Part shown: positions 7,889-43,719 of the stretch, one piece after another
How the letters are laid out: each line of letters opens with the position of its first letter
Position numbering within the stretch: position 1 is the stretch's first letter
Assembly (NCBI GenBank): GCA_019247895.1
Contig: JAFBAF010000102.1
Coordinates: 1 to 48,860, forward strand
Direction: 5' to 3'
DNA length: 48,860 nucleotides
DNA from: Parafilimonas sp.
GTDB lineage: Bacteria > Bacteroidota > Bacteroidia > Chitinophagales > Chitinophagaceae
Notes under the pieces: generated by a model
The model's input: only the letters and a program-made list of their open reading frames with translations
Told to the model about the DNA's origin: nothing
Databases searched by the model: none
Translations under genes and position numbers: made by a program

Positions 7889-8866
7889 ATGAAAATTATG
7901 CGAGGATATGTTTGTGTTTTATTAATGATTTTATTTTTTAAAAACGTAAATGCGCAAAATGATACGCTGGTAAATAAGCTGGATAGCCTTAATAGAAAAA
8001 CTGACACCACCGGCAGTCAAACCAACATCATCAATCCCCACGCCTATACAGAAAACACACGAATAAGTTTTCCGGCATACTTTATATTGCTGGGTAATGA
8101 TTTTAAACAACAGGTAACGGCGCCATTTCATCAAACTTCAAAAGAGTGGCTACGCATTGGTGTTTACTGCGCTTCAGTTGCAACTATATCAGCCGTTGCT
8201 GATGAACCTGTTCAACGCTTTGCAGTAAAAGTGCACGATAGCAGCAAGGCTGTATCAGCTGTTAGCAGTTATGTTACCAAATTTGGCGGCAGATACGAAG
8301 TATATACTTTAGCGGCATTAGGTGGTTATGGATTTATTTTCAATAATAAAAAAATGCAAACAACAACTTTGCTTGCCACTCAGGCTTACATAACAAGCGG
8401 TCTTATAGAAACTATACTTAAAACTATCAGCGGAAGGCAAAGACCAAGTTATTATAACCCAAATCATCCGGAATCGGAGCCTTATTTTCATGGCCCTTTT
8501 TTTAAAAAAGGTGTTGATGTAAGTGGTCATGCAATAAATAGCTCTTTTCCTTCAGGGCACACTACAGTTATATTTGCAGCGGCAACTGTTTTTGCAAAAG
8601 AATATAAGAATACTCCGTGGGTTCCGCCATTAGCGTATGGCGCTGCTACTCTTGTTGGATTAAGCAGAATTACGGAAAACAAGCATTGGACTACAGATGT
8701 TATTGTGGGCTCAACACTTGGATATTTATGCGGCAGGCAAGTTGTAAATAACTACCATCGCTATGCTAAATTGAAAGCACCGAATAAAAGCGGGACGCTA
8801 TCGTTTAATTTGAATTATAACGGTTATAATTTTGAGCCGGGTTTTGTTTATACTTTTAGAAATTAA
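7889..8866 (+). CDS. PAP2-superfamily phosphatase, exported or membrane
   Basis: GRQRPSYYNP, SSFPSGHTT and SRITENKHWTTDV motifs. Confidence 0.92.
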   Translation: MKIMRGYVCVLLMILFFKNVNAQNDTLVNKLDSLNRKTDTTGSQTNIINPHAYTENTRISFPAYFILLGNDFKQQVTAPFHQTSKEWLRIGVYCASVATISAVADEPVQRFAVKVHDSSKAVSAVSSYVTKFGGRYEVYTLAALGGYGFIFNNKKMQTTTLLATQAYITSGLIETILKTISGRQRPSYYNPNHPESEPYFHGPFFKKGVDVSGHAINSSFPSGHTTVIFAAATVFAKEYKNTPWVPPLAYGAATLVGLSRITENKHWTTDVIVGSTLGYLCGRQVVNNYHRYAKLKAPNKSGTLSFNLNYNGYNFEPGFVYTFRN

Positions 8867-8872
8867 TTGTGT

Positions 8873-9871
8873 TTAATATTTACATACAATCACCTGGAAT
8901 GTTCCGGGCATGAGCGGAGGTCTTTTTGAGGTATCAGTTGATGCGCCAAAATCTGCTGTTGGTGTATAAACATTATGGGTATGCATATCTACCGTTAATG
9001 TTCTTGCGCCACGCTTTGTTGCAAGGTTATTGATAACCGTAAACTTATTTTTCGATTCTTCCTTTATAATCGTTAAAGTGCCTTCGCCATTGGATGAATA
9101 GATTGTGTTTAGTGACGGATCAAACGCAGTTCCATCACAGCCATCCCCAATAGGAAGTTTTGTAATTAATTTGCCGTTTGTGGCATCTATCACAATCAAT
9201 AATTTATTATCACAACCGGCAAACAATAATTTATTTTTTTTATCGATCGATAAGCCGGAAGGTGATTCTCCCGGTGCAACAGACCATGTATGAATTAATT
9301 TCATTGAATTGATATCAATCACTTCTATTTCACTTTTGTCTTCATTATTAATATAAATATTTCCTGCATTATCACTAACAGCAGTTTCGGGTTTCCCTTT
9401 CACATCAATTGTTGCAACTACTTTGTTTGTTGATGGATCAATTACACTTATATCTTTACTTCCACCATTACAGGTTATGATTTTTTTAGAATATTCATCA
9501 TAAAAAATTGCATCCGGATTTTTCCCGGTTGCAATGCTATCAGTAACGTGTAGTGTATTTAAATCAAACACAAAAACATTATTTAATCTTCCGTTGCTTG
9601 TAAATCCTTTATTTAAATTATGCACAAGTGCAATGCCGTGCACGCCAAGTGTACCCGGAATTATGCCGACTGAATCACCATTATTCTTATCAATTACATT
9701 TACTTGTGTGCCGTGAGAAACAAATAATTTATTTGACGCAGAATCAACAAAAATGTAATCCCACCAGCCATCACTTTTTATGTGAAATGAGTCTGCAACA
9801 TGCAATGGCGTTTGCGCAAATAAATTTGCTGACATAAATAATAGAGCGATCGACAAAATTTGCTTAAGCAT
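8873..9871 (-). CDS. YncE-like beta-propeller secreted protein (paralogue of 45183-46193)
   Basis: Repeats such as SNKLFVSHGTQVNVIDKNNGDSVG and KIITCNGGSKDISVIDPSTNKVVATIDV. Start chosen at MLKQILSIALLF (signal peptide) rather than the upstream ATG at 9919. Confidence 0.85.
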   Translation of the reverse strand: MLKQILSIALLFMSANLFAQTPLHVADSFHIKSDGWWDYIFVDSASNKLFVSHGTQVNVIDKNNGDSVGIIPGTLGVHGIALVHNLNKGFTSNGRLNNVFVFDLNTLHVTDSIATGKNPDAIFYDEYSKKIITCNGGSKDISVIDPSTNKVVATIDVKGKPETAVSDNAGNIYINNEDKSEIEVIDINSMKLIHTWSVAPGESPSGLSIDKKNKLLFAGCDNKLLIVIDATNGKLITKLPIGDGCDGTAFDPSLNTIYSSNGEGTLTIIKEESKNKFTVINNLATKRGARTLTVDMHTHNVYTPTADFGASTDTSKRPPLMPGTFQVIVCKY

Positions 9872-36971: not shown

Positions 36972-37447
36972 TTATTTCCCCAATTGTTTATCGATCTGTT
37001 TTACTTGTTGCGGTATTAATGCAATATTGTATAATCTGATTTCAGCAATTGAGCCATAAAAAAACTTTTGCTGATCGCCGCTTGCCGATTTGCCGATTAT
37101 TAAGTCATATTCGTTGTTCGTATAAATTCCACTGTGCTTCCACTTATCGGCAAAAGCATCGTTTATATATAATTTTACCCAAGCTCCATCATATGTGTAA
37201 ACAAGTTTATACCATTGTCCAATACTCAACAGTACCCGTTTAGCTTGTAGCTTCATTTTCGCAGGGGAAACCATCGCCTAAAACCTGTTACAGAATTGCC
37301 TCCAACGGCTAAACGATAAGAACCCCTAGACAGATAATCATAATCCACAAGAACAATAATGCCAGTACCAGAAAGATAGTTTGGCTTTACCAAGCTACTA
37401 TAGAAAATTGTGATGGCACCATTGATGGCGAATAACTCGCTCTTAAG
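36972..37447 (-). pseudogene. Remnant of a LamG/concanavalin A-like domain gene, split into two frames
   Basis: LLKSELFAINGAITIFYSSLVKPNYLSGTGIIVLVDYDYLSRGSYRLAVGGN...* (37447-37253), then GQWYKLVYTYDGAWVKLYINDAFADKWKHSGIYTNNEYDLIIGKSASGDQQKFFYGSIAEIRLYNIAL (37274-36972) in another frame. Confidence 0.6.
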
Positions 37448-38081: not shown

Positions 38082-38316
38082 AGTGTTTCTAAATTTAAGT
38101 TGTCAATTGCTTGCAGACAATGTTGAAGTATTTGCTTACGGCAGTGCATTCGATGCTCGTCACGCTGGTGCCGAAGCTGATTTTTATTCTTTGCCGAAGA
38201 TAGCATTTGTTGCTCAATAGAATTCTGTCGCTCTGATAGCTGAAGATGAACAGCGTTGCCACTGTTGATGCTGCGTTGGGCCACCCCGCTGACGCAAAAC
38301 CGCTGTTAGCGAGGTT

Positions 38317-39102
38317 TTATCTTTCTAACTTAAATGGTCCTGTGTCAATCTCGCCTGAACCTTTCCAGCCCATGTATAGCCCTTCAAAACAATTTGCATG
38401 TCCATTCAATGCCGCTTGAAAGGCACCATAACGACCAATGTTTTGTACTTCATTAAAACTGCCGGTTAAAAAGTGCCTTGAGATTTCTCCCTTGATTAAA
38501 TACCTTTCATATTTACTAACATCAAGAATAAATTTAAAAGTGCTTTCATAGTGAAACACCTCTACTTCTTTTGTTTCAGGCTTATTGTATTCAGAGGAAC
38601 CTTTTCTACCCCATGTCGCTTTCCATTTTCCTCCTAATGTATATTTCGAAGGGTTAAATACTTGTGACTTAAGTTTAGTGCAAAATACTGAGACCGCAGA
38701 CTCTGGATTTGAATTGATTTTTGAAGCATCGTATTTACCTAAATTGATACCTATCAAATCCGTAGGAAGATGAAAATCTTTAATCAAATTATCAGGAGCA
38801 ATAATAAAGCAATTCTTTCTTCCCAATTTACCTGTGTATAACCCTAATTCATATAAAACATTGTCTCTAACAACACTTAGCTGTTCATTCTTTATTGTCG
38901 CTTTATCATCAGGCGAGAATACAAAAATTCCAAAATCAGACTCGTTTAACTTTGCAAGCAAATCGTCAATAGTTGTATTGCCGATTCCAAATACTCCCTC
39001 ACTCCATAAGTCAACATCAAAGCTGAAATCTAACTTCACTTTGATGTTTTCTGCAACTATTAAACCTTCTACTGAAGAACCAATAAATAGTTTAGGTTTC
39101 AT
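38317..39102 (-). CDS. CAP12/TIR-STING-type TIR (predicted nucleotide-binding) protein with an extra C-terminal beta-rich domain
   Basis: KLFIGSSVEGLIVAENIKVKLDFSFDVDLWSEGVFGIGNTTIDDLL, DFGIFVFSPDD and RDNVLYELGLYTGKLGRKNCFII with candidate catalytic Glu85; C-terminal GGKWKATWGRKG...GRYGAFQAALNG...GLYMGWKGSGEIDTGPFKLER. Confidence 0.85.
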   Translation of the reverse strand: MKPKLFIGSSVEGLIVAENIKVKLDFSFDVDLWSEGVFGIGNTTIDDLLAKLNESDFGIFVFSPDDKATIKNEQLSVVRDNVLYELGLYTGKLGRKNCFIIAPDNLIKDFHLPTDLIGINLGKYDASKINSNPESAVSVFCTKLKSQVFNPSKYTLGGKWKATWGRKGSSEYNKPETKEVEVFHYESTFKFILDVSKYERYLIKGEISRHFLTGSFNEVQNIGRYGAFQAALNGHANCFEGLYMGWKGSGEIDTGPFKLER

Positions 39103-39316
39103 TTCTTTTGTTATAAATAATTTCAGCTAACAATTAAATATACGAAACTTACTTATTTCATTAAATCTAGAATCAAGATTTACACTCCCATTTTTGAGTG
39201 GACTTTTTACTACTTAAAAAACGAAATTATTTACCAGTTTAACTTATCTAAATGGTTTTCAGTTTTATCCAAACTTAGTCTCAGCAGGTTCTCATACCTG
39301 CTGATCTCGCAGGTTT

Positions 39317-39443
39317 AGTCTCAGCGGGGTCTTCGTTCAAGGCTTATGTGTAAAGCCACGAAACCCTGCGCCTATTTGCAAACATTATTGTAAACGCATG
39401 GTCTCATGCCTATGCAACTGCAGTGCAATGAAGAGCCCTGCTG
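39317..39443. repeat. Dispersed ~130-bp repeat with inverted ends, copy A
   Basis: agtctcagcggggtcttcgttcaaggcttatgtgtaaagcc...gcagtgcaatgaagagccctgctg; aligns end to end with 43593-43719. Confidence 0.85.
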
Positions 39444-40522: not shown

Positions 40523-42658
40523 ATGGAAGATTTAGAAAATAAATCCGGAATGCCCGTTTCGTTAATGGATAAACCAGTAAAAAAACCAGAGCCTGACGGA
40601 GTAAGAATAACATTTTTAACCGAGCAAGAGGAAACATCCAAAACCAAAATGCCGGCAGCATTGATGCAAGCCAAAACGATTCGTGCAAAGGGCCAAATGC
40701 CCAGCGGTAAAGCGATCATGAAAATTTCAGAGGATAAGAGTAAAGGATCAAGGGCTGATAAATTGGTGGACGGTAAAATGCCGGCAGTTGATATGAATGT
40801 AAAAAGGCCAAAGCCATCAAAAAAAAGAGCCGATGATAATTTAATGCAGCCACCTTCTTTACAAACTGAAATTGAAGTAAGGCGTCCTCATGTTTTTCAT
40901 AAATCAGAATCTGCTGAAACAAAGCTGGTATATGAAATTTTAAGCAGACAAAAAATGGGGCCAACCGGTTTTGATTATCCTACTACTTTCAGAGGCAGCA
41001 CCGCACACTTTAATGTGTACTACGATCCAAGCCTGGGAACCGGCGGCGCAACAATAGCAGATGGCGTATTGGCAAGCTGCGAAGATGAATATAATTATCT
41101 CAAAATGCAGTTTGGCGGAATTGATGCCGGGCCTTTCAATATAATAATTGCTGCAGGTATTGGAGGCGCATTTCACTGGGGGTGTGCTGCCACCGATCTT
41201 TATTGCGACGCGGACACTTCTGCTACTCCTGACGTTGACCATACAAGGATGCTGGTTGTAGCAGAAGAAACCGAAGTATTTTCTGCCGTGCAAAATCTTG
41301 GATGGGATTGCGGCGCAAGCAATGGCGAAGGGCTTTCCAGAATTTTCGCTACTGAATTATATCCCGCAGAATTAAATGGTTTTACGTCTGCCGGTTATTG
41401 GCTTGATACTCCGGGTCGTCCTGATTATGTAAATGTAAATGATCCCACTGACAGAAATTATATATCCATAGGCTGTTCAGTACTGTTTTTAAATTATTTG
41501 CATTATCAATTAGGTTATAGATGGGAACATATTACATGTGCTGCTGCCTCTACACTTGCAGAAACCTATACAAAATTAACAGGAAGAACCGGTGGTTTTG
41601 ATGACTTTAAAGCTTTGCTCCAGGTTTATTTTCCGGAAGGAACGCCAAGTGGTGTTACAATAGATAATGTTTTTCCGCTGGGTGCTGTCAGTACCGGGCG
41701 CCTGGAAGTTTTTGTACGGGGAAGTGATGGGGCAGTATGGCATAACTGGCAAACTGCACCGAATAACGGATGGAGCGGATGGGATTCTCTTGGTGGATGG
41801 GTATCAGAATTAGTGGTGGGTAAAAATGCCGATGGCAGGCTTGAAGTATTTGCAATAGGTGGTGATAATGCTCTTTGGCACAACTGGCAAACAGGATATG
41901 GCTGGAGCGGCTGGGACTCATTAGGCGGATGGATAGACAGGCTGGCGGTGGCACGCAATGCTGACGGGCGCCAGGAAGTATTTGCCCGGGGCGCTGATGG
42001 CGCTTTATGGCATATCTGGCAAACAGCTCCAAATAATGGCTGGAGCGGTTGGTATTCATTTGGCGGATGGATTGATATGATAACAACAGCACAAAATGCC
42101 GACGGGCGAATAGAAGTGTTTGTAAGGGGCGGTGACGGAGCCGTTTGGCATATCTGGCAAACAGCCCCAAGTAACGGATGGAGCGGATGGGATTCTCTTG
42201 GCGGATGGATTGATATACTTAATGTAGGTCAAAATGCTGATGGACGATTAGAAGTGTTTGCACGGGGAAGTGATGGAGCACTATGGCATAACTGGCAAAC
42301 GGCGCCGAACAACGGTTGGAGCGGCTGGGCGTCTATGGGAGGATGGATAGATAGAATTGCAGTAGGTCAAAATGCCGATGGACGACTCGAAGTGTTTGCA
42401 AGAGGGGGTGACGGAGCGGTGTGGCATAATTGGCAAACAGCGCCAAACAACGGCTGGAGCGGCTGGGGCTCTCTTGGCGGATGGATAGATATGCTTGCAC
42501 TGGGATCAAATCAAGATGGCAGAATAGAATTGTTTGCGCGGGGAGGTGATGCTGGCCTGTGGCATAACTGGCAAACAGCACCCAACAACGGTTGGAGCGG
42601 CTGGGGGTCTATGGGAGGCTGGTTTGATTTACTTGCCGTTGGACAAAATTCATTGTAG
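40523..42658 (+). CDS. 711-aa protein: basic N-terminal region, peptidase-like middle domain, seven-repeat PLL-type beta-propeller lectin
   Basis: Seven repeats of DGRLEVFARGxDGALWHNWQTAPNNGWSGWxSLGGWIDxLAVGQNA; middle domain with VVAEETEVFSAVQNLGWDCGASNGEGLSRIFATELYP; no obvious signal peptide. Confidence 0.85.
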   Translation: MEDLENKSGMPVSLMDKPVKKPEPDGVRITFLTEQEETSKTKMPAALMQAKTIRAKGQMPSGKAIMKISEDKSKGSRADKLVDGKMPAVDMNVKRPKPSKKRADDNLMQPPSLQTEIEVRRPHVFHKSESAETKLVYEILSRQKMGPTGFDYPTTFRGSTAHFNVYYDPSLGTGGATIADGVLASCEDEYNYLKMQFGGIDAGPFNIIIAAGIGGAFHWGCAATDLYCDADTSATPDVDHTRMLVVAEETEVFSAVQNLGWDCGASNGEGLSRIFATELYPAELNGFTSAGYWLDTPGRPDYVNVNDPTDRNYISIGCSVLFLNYLHYQLGYRWEHITCAAASTLAETYTKLTGRTGGFDDFKALLQVYFPEGTPSGVTIDNVFPLGAVSTGRLEVFVRGSDGAVWHNWQTAPNNGWSGWDSLGGWVSELVVGKNADGRLEVFAIGGDNALWHNWQTGYGWSGWDSLGGWIDRLAVARNADGRQEVFARGADGALWHIWQTAPNNGWSGWYSFGGWIDMITTAQNADGRIEVFVRGGDGAVWHIWQTAPSNGWSGWDSLGGWIDILNVGQNADGRLEVFARGSDGALWHNWQTAPNNGWSGWASMGGWIDRIAVGQNADGRLEVFARGGDGAVWHNWQTAPNNGWSGWGSLGGWIDMLALGSNQDGRIELFARGGDAGLWHNWQTAPNNGWSGWGSMGGWFDLLAVGQNSL

Positions 42659-43480: not shown

Positions 43481-43592
43481 CGCTGTTGCTGGTGAGGTGG
43501 AGTAACGCAATGTGATTTATGTTTTAGAACACTTAAGGCATGGTACGTGCGGGCATAAACCGTGGCGGCGGGTGAATATCTGTGATACTTTC

Positions 43593-43719
43593 AGTCTCAG
43601 TAGGGTCTTCGTTTAAGGCTTATGTGTAAAGCTGCGGACCCTGCGCTTATTAATTCAAACGTACAATAAATGCAGAGTCTCATGGCGCACACAATTGCAG
43701 TGCAATGAAGACCCTGCTG
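43593..43719. repeat. Dispersed ~130-bp repeat with inverted ends, copy B
   Basis: agtctcagtagggtcttcgtttaaggcttatgtgtaaagc...ttgcagtgcaatgaagaccctgctg; ends cagtagggtcttcgtt / aatgaagaccctgctg are near-perfect inverted repeats. Confidence 0.85.

Follow-up and report, generated by a model that had tools for sequence, protein, structure and literature searches.

A single gene of the analyzed stretch of DNA (a contig of 48.9 kb, C112, referred to in its whole length as the window) encodes a protein which appears to combine an N-terminal TIR domain of the CAP12/Pycsar family with a C-terminal domain of an unnamed family, predicted to form an eight-stranded barrel. The best reading of this TIR-barrel protein is that of a self-contained or trans-activated abortive-infection NADase, in which the barrel would act as the sensor. 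The open reading frame claimed for positions 38317-39102 by a previous sequence-only reading proved to be real. What that reading had noticed was confirmed, and its interpretation was borne out in part. The features of the gene are compiled in Table 1.

Table 1. Positions in the window of the gene for the TIR-barrel protein, its predicted domains and active-site codons, and a nearby repeat element.
Feature	Positions	Strand	Basis
TIR-barrel gene (261 aa)	38317..39102	minus	ATG start, TAA stop; complete ORF; full-length homologue L076/L083
TIR domain, residues 4-125, assigned to CAP12/Pycsar family PF10137	38728..39093	minus	Pfam, PDB, and PADLOC matches
W33 codon, BB-loop residue equivalent to ElSTING W34	39004..39006	minus	alignment and PMC12421889
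F38 codon, BB-loop residue equivalent to ElSTING F39	38989..38991	minus	alignment and PMC12421889
E85 codon, predicted catalytic glutamate, equivalent to ElSTING E86	38848..38850	minus	alignment and PMC12421889
TIR end and linker, residues 126-154	38641..38727	minus	inferred from the boundaries of both domains
C-terminal domain (predicted barrel), residues 155-261	38320..38640	minus	family profile; fold from the model of the homologous XRE domain
Short repeat element 5' of the gene	39314..39365		second copy at 43590-43641 (85%)

The N-terminal part of the protein matches Pfam family PF10137 (CAP12-PCTIR_TIR) over residues 4-125 with an E value of 1.6e-28 and 99.6 bits, as compared to a cut-off of 24.7 bits. 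This is the sole Pfam match in the protein, and the TIR domain is assigned to this family as judged from its sequence. The PADLOC models for the CBASS TIR effector (1.7e-39) and PycTIR (6.6e-27) are matched as well, with only the TIR part of either model covered, and the nearest sequences in the PDB are those of Cap12 (9lmq, 1.2e-18) and PycTIR. Residue E85 is located within the motif RDNVLYE-LGLY and aligns with the catalytic E86 of ElSTING, while W33 and F38 are present at the positions of ElSTING W34 and F39; the E86A variant of ElSTING served as catalytically dead control, and W34 and F39 belong to its BB loop (PMC12421889). With PF10137 scoring above its cut-off and a glutamate at the catalytic position, the CAP12-type TIR domain with intact active site proposed by the earlier reading is borne out. 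PF10137 TIR domains assayed in the literature are NADases which are switched on by oligomerization (PMC12421889, PMC13142454), and a TIR atlas places the family in one clade, with other CAP12/Pycsar TIRs becoming active NADases via oligomerization (PMC13142454). Because the active-site residues are present and other members of the family are oligomerization-activated NADases, NADase activity is also likely for the TIR-barrel protein.

The closest TIR domain (45% identity) occurs in a Herminiimonas MAG (L026:8001-9638), where it is joined to a TPR-like C-terminal half that is neither STING nor barrel, indicating that this group of TIR domains pairs with many different C-terminal parts. Other genes encountered with TIR domains include an overlapping pair in Paenibacillus (L031-L035, around 8001-9430). 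The first gene of this pair encodes a protein with nothing but a TIR domain, and the second joins a divergent TIR-like domain, devoid of the RDNVxxE motif, to an unknown domain of about 200 amino acids. Two identical-looking copies of a gene for a 317-aa TIR protein are present on one contig of Paenibacillus ottowii, about 60 kb apart (L028, L029).

The C-terminal domain is of a different kind. The NCBIfam equivalog models of Cap12 match residues 1-131 and 4-135 only, at 114 and 93 bits versus a cut-off of 450 bits, so the models end before the C-terminal domain, which falls into another family, in agreement with the earlier view that it is not STING. Residues 155-261 do not match any entry in Pfam, PADLOC, the PDB sequences, plasmids, or phages, and are regarded here as belonging to an unnamed family that was assembled in the present analysis by sequence comparison. 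A family profile built without the TIR-barrel sequence assigns it 33.2 bits, whereas the best of 2000 shuffled sequences reaches 7.5 bits, and an hhalign comparison of the Bacteroidota-side set with the set of XRE regulators yields a probability of 98% and a score of 76, versus values of at most 16.4 in 20 column-shuffled controls. These values place the homology of the barrel domains beyond chance. The conserved features are a tryptophan near the start and the motifs TG-x-W/F, Y-x-GA-x-Q, and G-x-W/Y-x-G; the TIR-barrel protein itself carries GGKW (residues 157-160), FLTGSF (211-216), RYGAFQ (224-229), EGLYMG (240-245), and IDTG (252-255).

The relatives were gathered stepwise in whole genomes, starting with L038/L085 and proceeding to L076 and L077 by a two-row profile, and L149 and the weaker L150 were the last to emerge. 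A tblastn search with L077 against plasmids reached XRE-type regulators of actinobacteria (3e-6), and further XRE-barrel relatives were detected in IMG/VR contigs, at 23 loci in one search and 30 in another. The distribution is patchy: 396 genomes of the same taxonomic family contained two further credible barrel matches, seven other genomes of the genus (three of them only 63-67% complete) contained none, and no second match to the TIR-barrel protein occurs in its own genome (94% complete, 6% contamination). Weak single-sequence matches such as L039-L063 and the profile matches L088/L089 were judged to be due to chance on inspection, and the XRE regulator DdiA was dismissed as an unrelated protein with a helical C-terminal domain. 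No relatives turned up in phage records, be it for the whole protein, for its C-terminal part, or for the XRE barrel, and the IMG/VR contigs yielded no protein of the TIR-barrel type. A word search of open-licence papers returned no account of a TIR domain joined to such a barrel. The barrel family is unlisted in the defense catalogs searched (Pfam and PADLOC).

As judged from the sequences of these relatives, the barrel domain is modular and carried by TIR, transmembrane (TM), and XRE-HTH partners. The TIR-barrel layout is shared with only one other protein found, L076/L083, which stems from a different genus within the taxonomic family (genome G936) and is 35% identical from end to end (E=2e-51, pairwise); the TIR tree does not resolve whether the two proteins derive from one shared fusion or from separate ones. 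The TM-barrel layout is represented by four small proteins of 154-177 aa in the same phylum (L077/L084, L085, L149, and the weaker L150), and a hydrophobic N-terminal segment above the threshold is present in L077, L085, L149, and L150, while the TIR-barrel protein lacks such a segment (maximum 0.93). The XRE-HTH-barrel proteins, in which the barrel makes up the C-terminal half, are encoded in plasmid records of Streptomyces and Nocardia and in viral contigs. CBASS and Pycsar effectors show such a layout, with one sensor exchanged between TIR and TM effectors, and the earlier proposal that the same NAD-cleaving TIR is fused here to a different sensor fits with the modularity of the C-terminal domain.

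Evidence from gene neighborhoods comes from a handful of loci and does not constitute a statistical survey. One TM-barrel gene (L084, L084:8963-11309, plus strand) is located 212 bp upstream of an NsnA/PD-T4-2_A gene (1e-68/1e-62; GmrSD_N), and the same locus also holds a gene for a 179-aa protein with weak HEPN similarity. Another one (L085, L085:9017-11252, minus strand) lies 4 bp after a gene for a GHKL ATPase, so that the two may form a two-gene unit; the pair did not match any known PADLOC system, and the ATPase is only weakly similar to TmtA. The surroundings of L150 contain a putative nucleotidyltransferase-type gene, a methyltransferase gene, and an NYN-type gene, and no defense neighbor was seen at L149.

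The C-terminal domain had been described as beta-rich, which agrees with the model of the homologous XRE domain. AlphaFold2 on the XRE-type alignment returned eight consecutive strands and no helix (pLDDT 93, pTM 0.85), and the best folds retrieved with Foldseek were TbpB barrels, lipocalins, the spirocyclase OlmO, NHBA, and GrlR, whose TM-scores are moderate (0.4-0.6); Cap15 does not appear in the list of the 50 best PDB matches. The domain of the XRE homologue is thus modeled as a lipocalin-like eight-stranded meander barrel. The alignment consisted of 29 rows, namely 28 actinobacterial-type sequences with L106 as the first, and the TIR-barrel row. Because the first half of the latter is poorly registered, the eight-stranded fold is transferred to the TIR-barrel protein by homology instead of being modeled directly; the modeled XRE homologue and the TIR-barrel domain share about 20% identity, and a single-sequence AlphaFold run on the whole TIR-barrel protein gave a pLDDT of 34. 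By homology, the C-terminal domain of the TIR-barrel protein should share the barrel. The fold alone does not settle its role, because such barrels bind small molecules and some of them bind proteins.

Taken together, the TIR-barrel protein would be an effector of the TIR type that resides in the cytoplasm, carries a ligand-binding barrel of eight strands at its C-terminus, and is inactive in the resting cell. A small molecule that binds inside the barrel or on its surface, most likely a metabolite or a signal derived from a nucleotide, would change in level upon infection, and the barrels would then allow head-to-tail stacking of the TIR domains, creating composite active sites from the BB loop of one subunit and E85 of the next. 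The ensuing destruction of NAD+ would stop phage growth, with the cell being lost. We consider it somewhat probable that ligand-gated TIR oligomerization leads to NAD+ depletion and halts the phage at the expense of the cell. The TIR half of this mechanism is well supported by the family assignment and the active-site residues, and we infer the sensor and antiphage halves from the modularity of the barrel, its fold, and the neighbors of a few relatives; the barrel fold of this protein, its NADase activity, oligomerization, ligand sensing, and antiphage function are predictions. The role of the barrel as a sensor is a prediction too, because barrels of the lipocalin type are also found in enzymes, in modules that bind proteins, and in lipid carriers.

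The fold leaves some room for direct sensing, in which the barrel would bind a phage protein or another macromolecule, as DSR2 does with the tail tube protein, and no small molecule would be involved. This appears improbable. It would suit a single gene without a signal-making partner, and the matching folds include proteins engaged in protein-protein interactions, such as the lobes of the transferrin-binding protein TbpB and GrlR in its complex with GrlA. However, a barrel that recurs on HTH regulators and on TM proteins is more typically a domain for small molecules, and the conserved positions are glycines, tryptophans, and the GAxQ motif rather than a variable surface, neither point being decisive.

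Comparison with known effectors leads to a second alternative. Cap12 and the TIR-STING proteins SfSTING and ElSTING share with the TIR-barrel protein the N-terminal PF10137 TIR, the equivalents of W33, F38, and E85, and a regulatory domain in a similar C-terminal position, but the C-terminal domain of about 106 aa is unrelated to STING. PycTIR contains a TIR of the same family, but at its C-terminus (positions 151-282 of the 288-position model), whereas the TIR of the TIR-barrel protein starts at residue 4, and the latter lacks a cyclic-nucleotide-binding domain and an adjacent cyclase gene. Cap15 and OptE (S-2TM-beta; CBASS and Panoptes) consist of an effector part and a small C-terminal beta-barrel, as is predicted for the TIR-barrel protein, and the outline is also seen in L077, L085, and L149, but a TIR replaces the TM helices in the TIR-barrel protein, and no cyclase or mCpol partner was seen in the window. 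Common descent of the barrels was rejected at the level of sequence, as hhalign comparisons with three Cap15 proteins gave probabilities of at most 1.2% and PF18153 did not match; this family was also not found elsewhere in the genome. The actinobacterial XRE regulators do carry a homologous C-terminal barrel, but joined to a helix-turn-helix domain instead of an enzyme. The TIR-barrel protein should therefore be regarded as neither a Cap12, nor a PycTIR, nor a Cap15/OptE protein.

Such likenesses would allow for a trans-activated effector whose barrel binds a cyclic nucleotide from a cyclase encoded elsewhere, as in CBASS, Pycsar, or (inverted) Panoptes, which we regard as distinctly improbable. 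Its layout would parallel that of TIR-STING and of Cap15/OptE, whose 2TM segments are followed by barrels described as nucleotide-binding in the Panoptes and mCpol papers (PMC12657218, PMC12657230), and two class III cyclase genes are present in the genome, both on other contigs. Yet known partners are encoded by adjacent genes, and the absence of a cyclase neighbor asserted earlier was upheld: reading the open reading frames of the window revealed no CD-NTase or other cyclase, and the genome, at 94% completeness, has no SMODS CD-NTase match (one family searched).

Another kind of partner is suggested by the homologue of the same two-domain layout in another genus. The end of this sole other TIR-barrel gene is separated by 107 bp from a full-length ThsB1-type TIR gene in convergent orientation (L083:9550-10260, minus strand, 1.7e-117), so that a partner in trans is possible. 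The barrel might then read a ThsB-type TIR signal, and TIR-barrel and TM-barrel proteins would represent alternative effectors to ThsA in a Thoeris-like branch. The effectors of type II Thoeris, too, are TM proteins that carry a domain for ligand binding, a layout which the TM-barrel proteins would share. Such a connection is nevertheless very unlikely, since it draws on a single locus with convergent genes that do not form an operon, and ThsB genes may occur alone. No ThsA was recognized in the 19 kb around L083, where ThsB alone adjoins the homologue, and neither a ThsB-like gene nor a locus combining ThsB and ThsA was noticed in the window.

The genomic surroundings bear on whether the gene serves in defense at all. 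Reading the open reading frames of the window revealed ordinary genes and no recognizable defense gene. The accessory nature claimed for the gene is supported by the finding that the genus has seven other genomes which all lack both the barrel and the neighboring AHSA1 gene, which marks the region as variable, and less so by the repeats and the pseudogene that had been adduced for it. The repeats come down to an element of about 50 bp on the 5' side with one other copy, and the 3' flank occurs only once in the genome. An integron cassette at this flank was rejected as well, because positions 38200-38340 are single-copy and no close repeats of the core motif were seen. The presumed pseudogene corresponds to a partial laminin-G/ConA-like fragment (36972-37274, minus strand), which matches the Pfam profile in its second half only and is a probable gene remnant. 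On the other side, a gene for a 711-aa protein (40523-42658, plus strand) contains in its second half about seven tandem repeats of about 46 aa with a period of 138 bp, resembling a propeller-type lectin. A stress-related or regulatory NADase outside of defense, or a gene remnant that decays within a variable region, would accord with the lack of a surrounding defense island, the adjoining laminin-G fragment, and the AHSA1 neighbor missing elsewhere in the genus, but is hard to reconcile with a complete open frame containing all active-site residues checked and with a full-length homologue in another genus, and is given very little credence.

TIR effectors are defined by their activating trigger, and for the proposed abortive-infection NADase with its barrel as sensor, the trigger would be what the barrel reads, which is directly testable with one gene for 261 aa. 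A barrel family that occurs on a TIR domain, on membrane proteins beside defense genes, and on regulators in plasmid and viral contigs of actinobacteria suggests that there is a sensor, and possibly also a signal, outside of Pfam and PADLOC. It is a tentative and rather doubtful extension that the barrel represents a new portable sensor for an infection-linked small molecule, employed by a TIR NADase, by membrane effectors, and by mobile-element regulators of actinobacteria, which would constitute a new signal-gated branch of defense parallel to those of STING, SAVED, and Cap15 and would possibly read ThsB-type TIR signals. The protein may thereby lead to a new mechanism by which bacteria detect infection and bring the cell to a halt.
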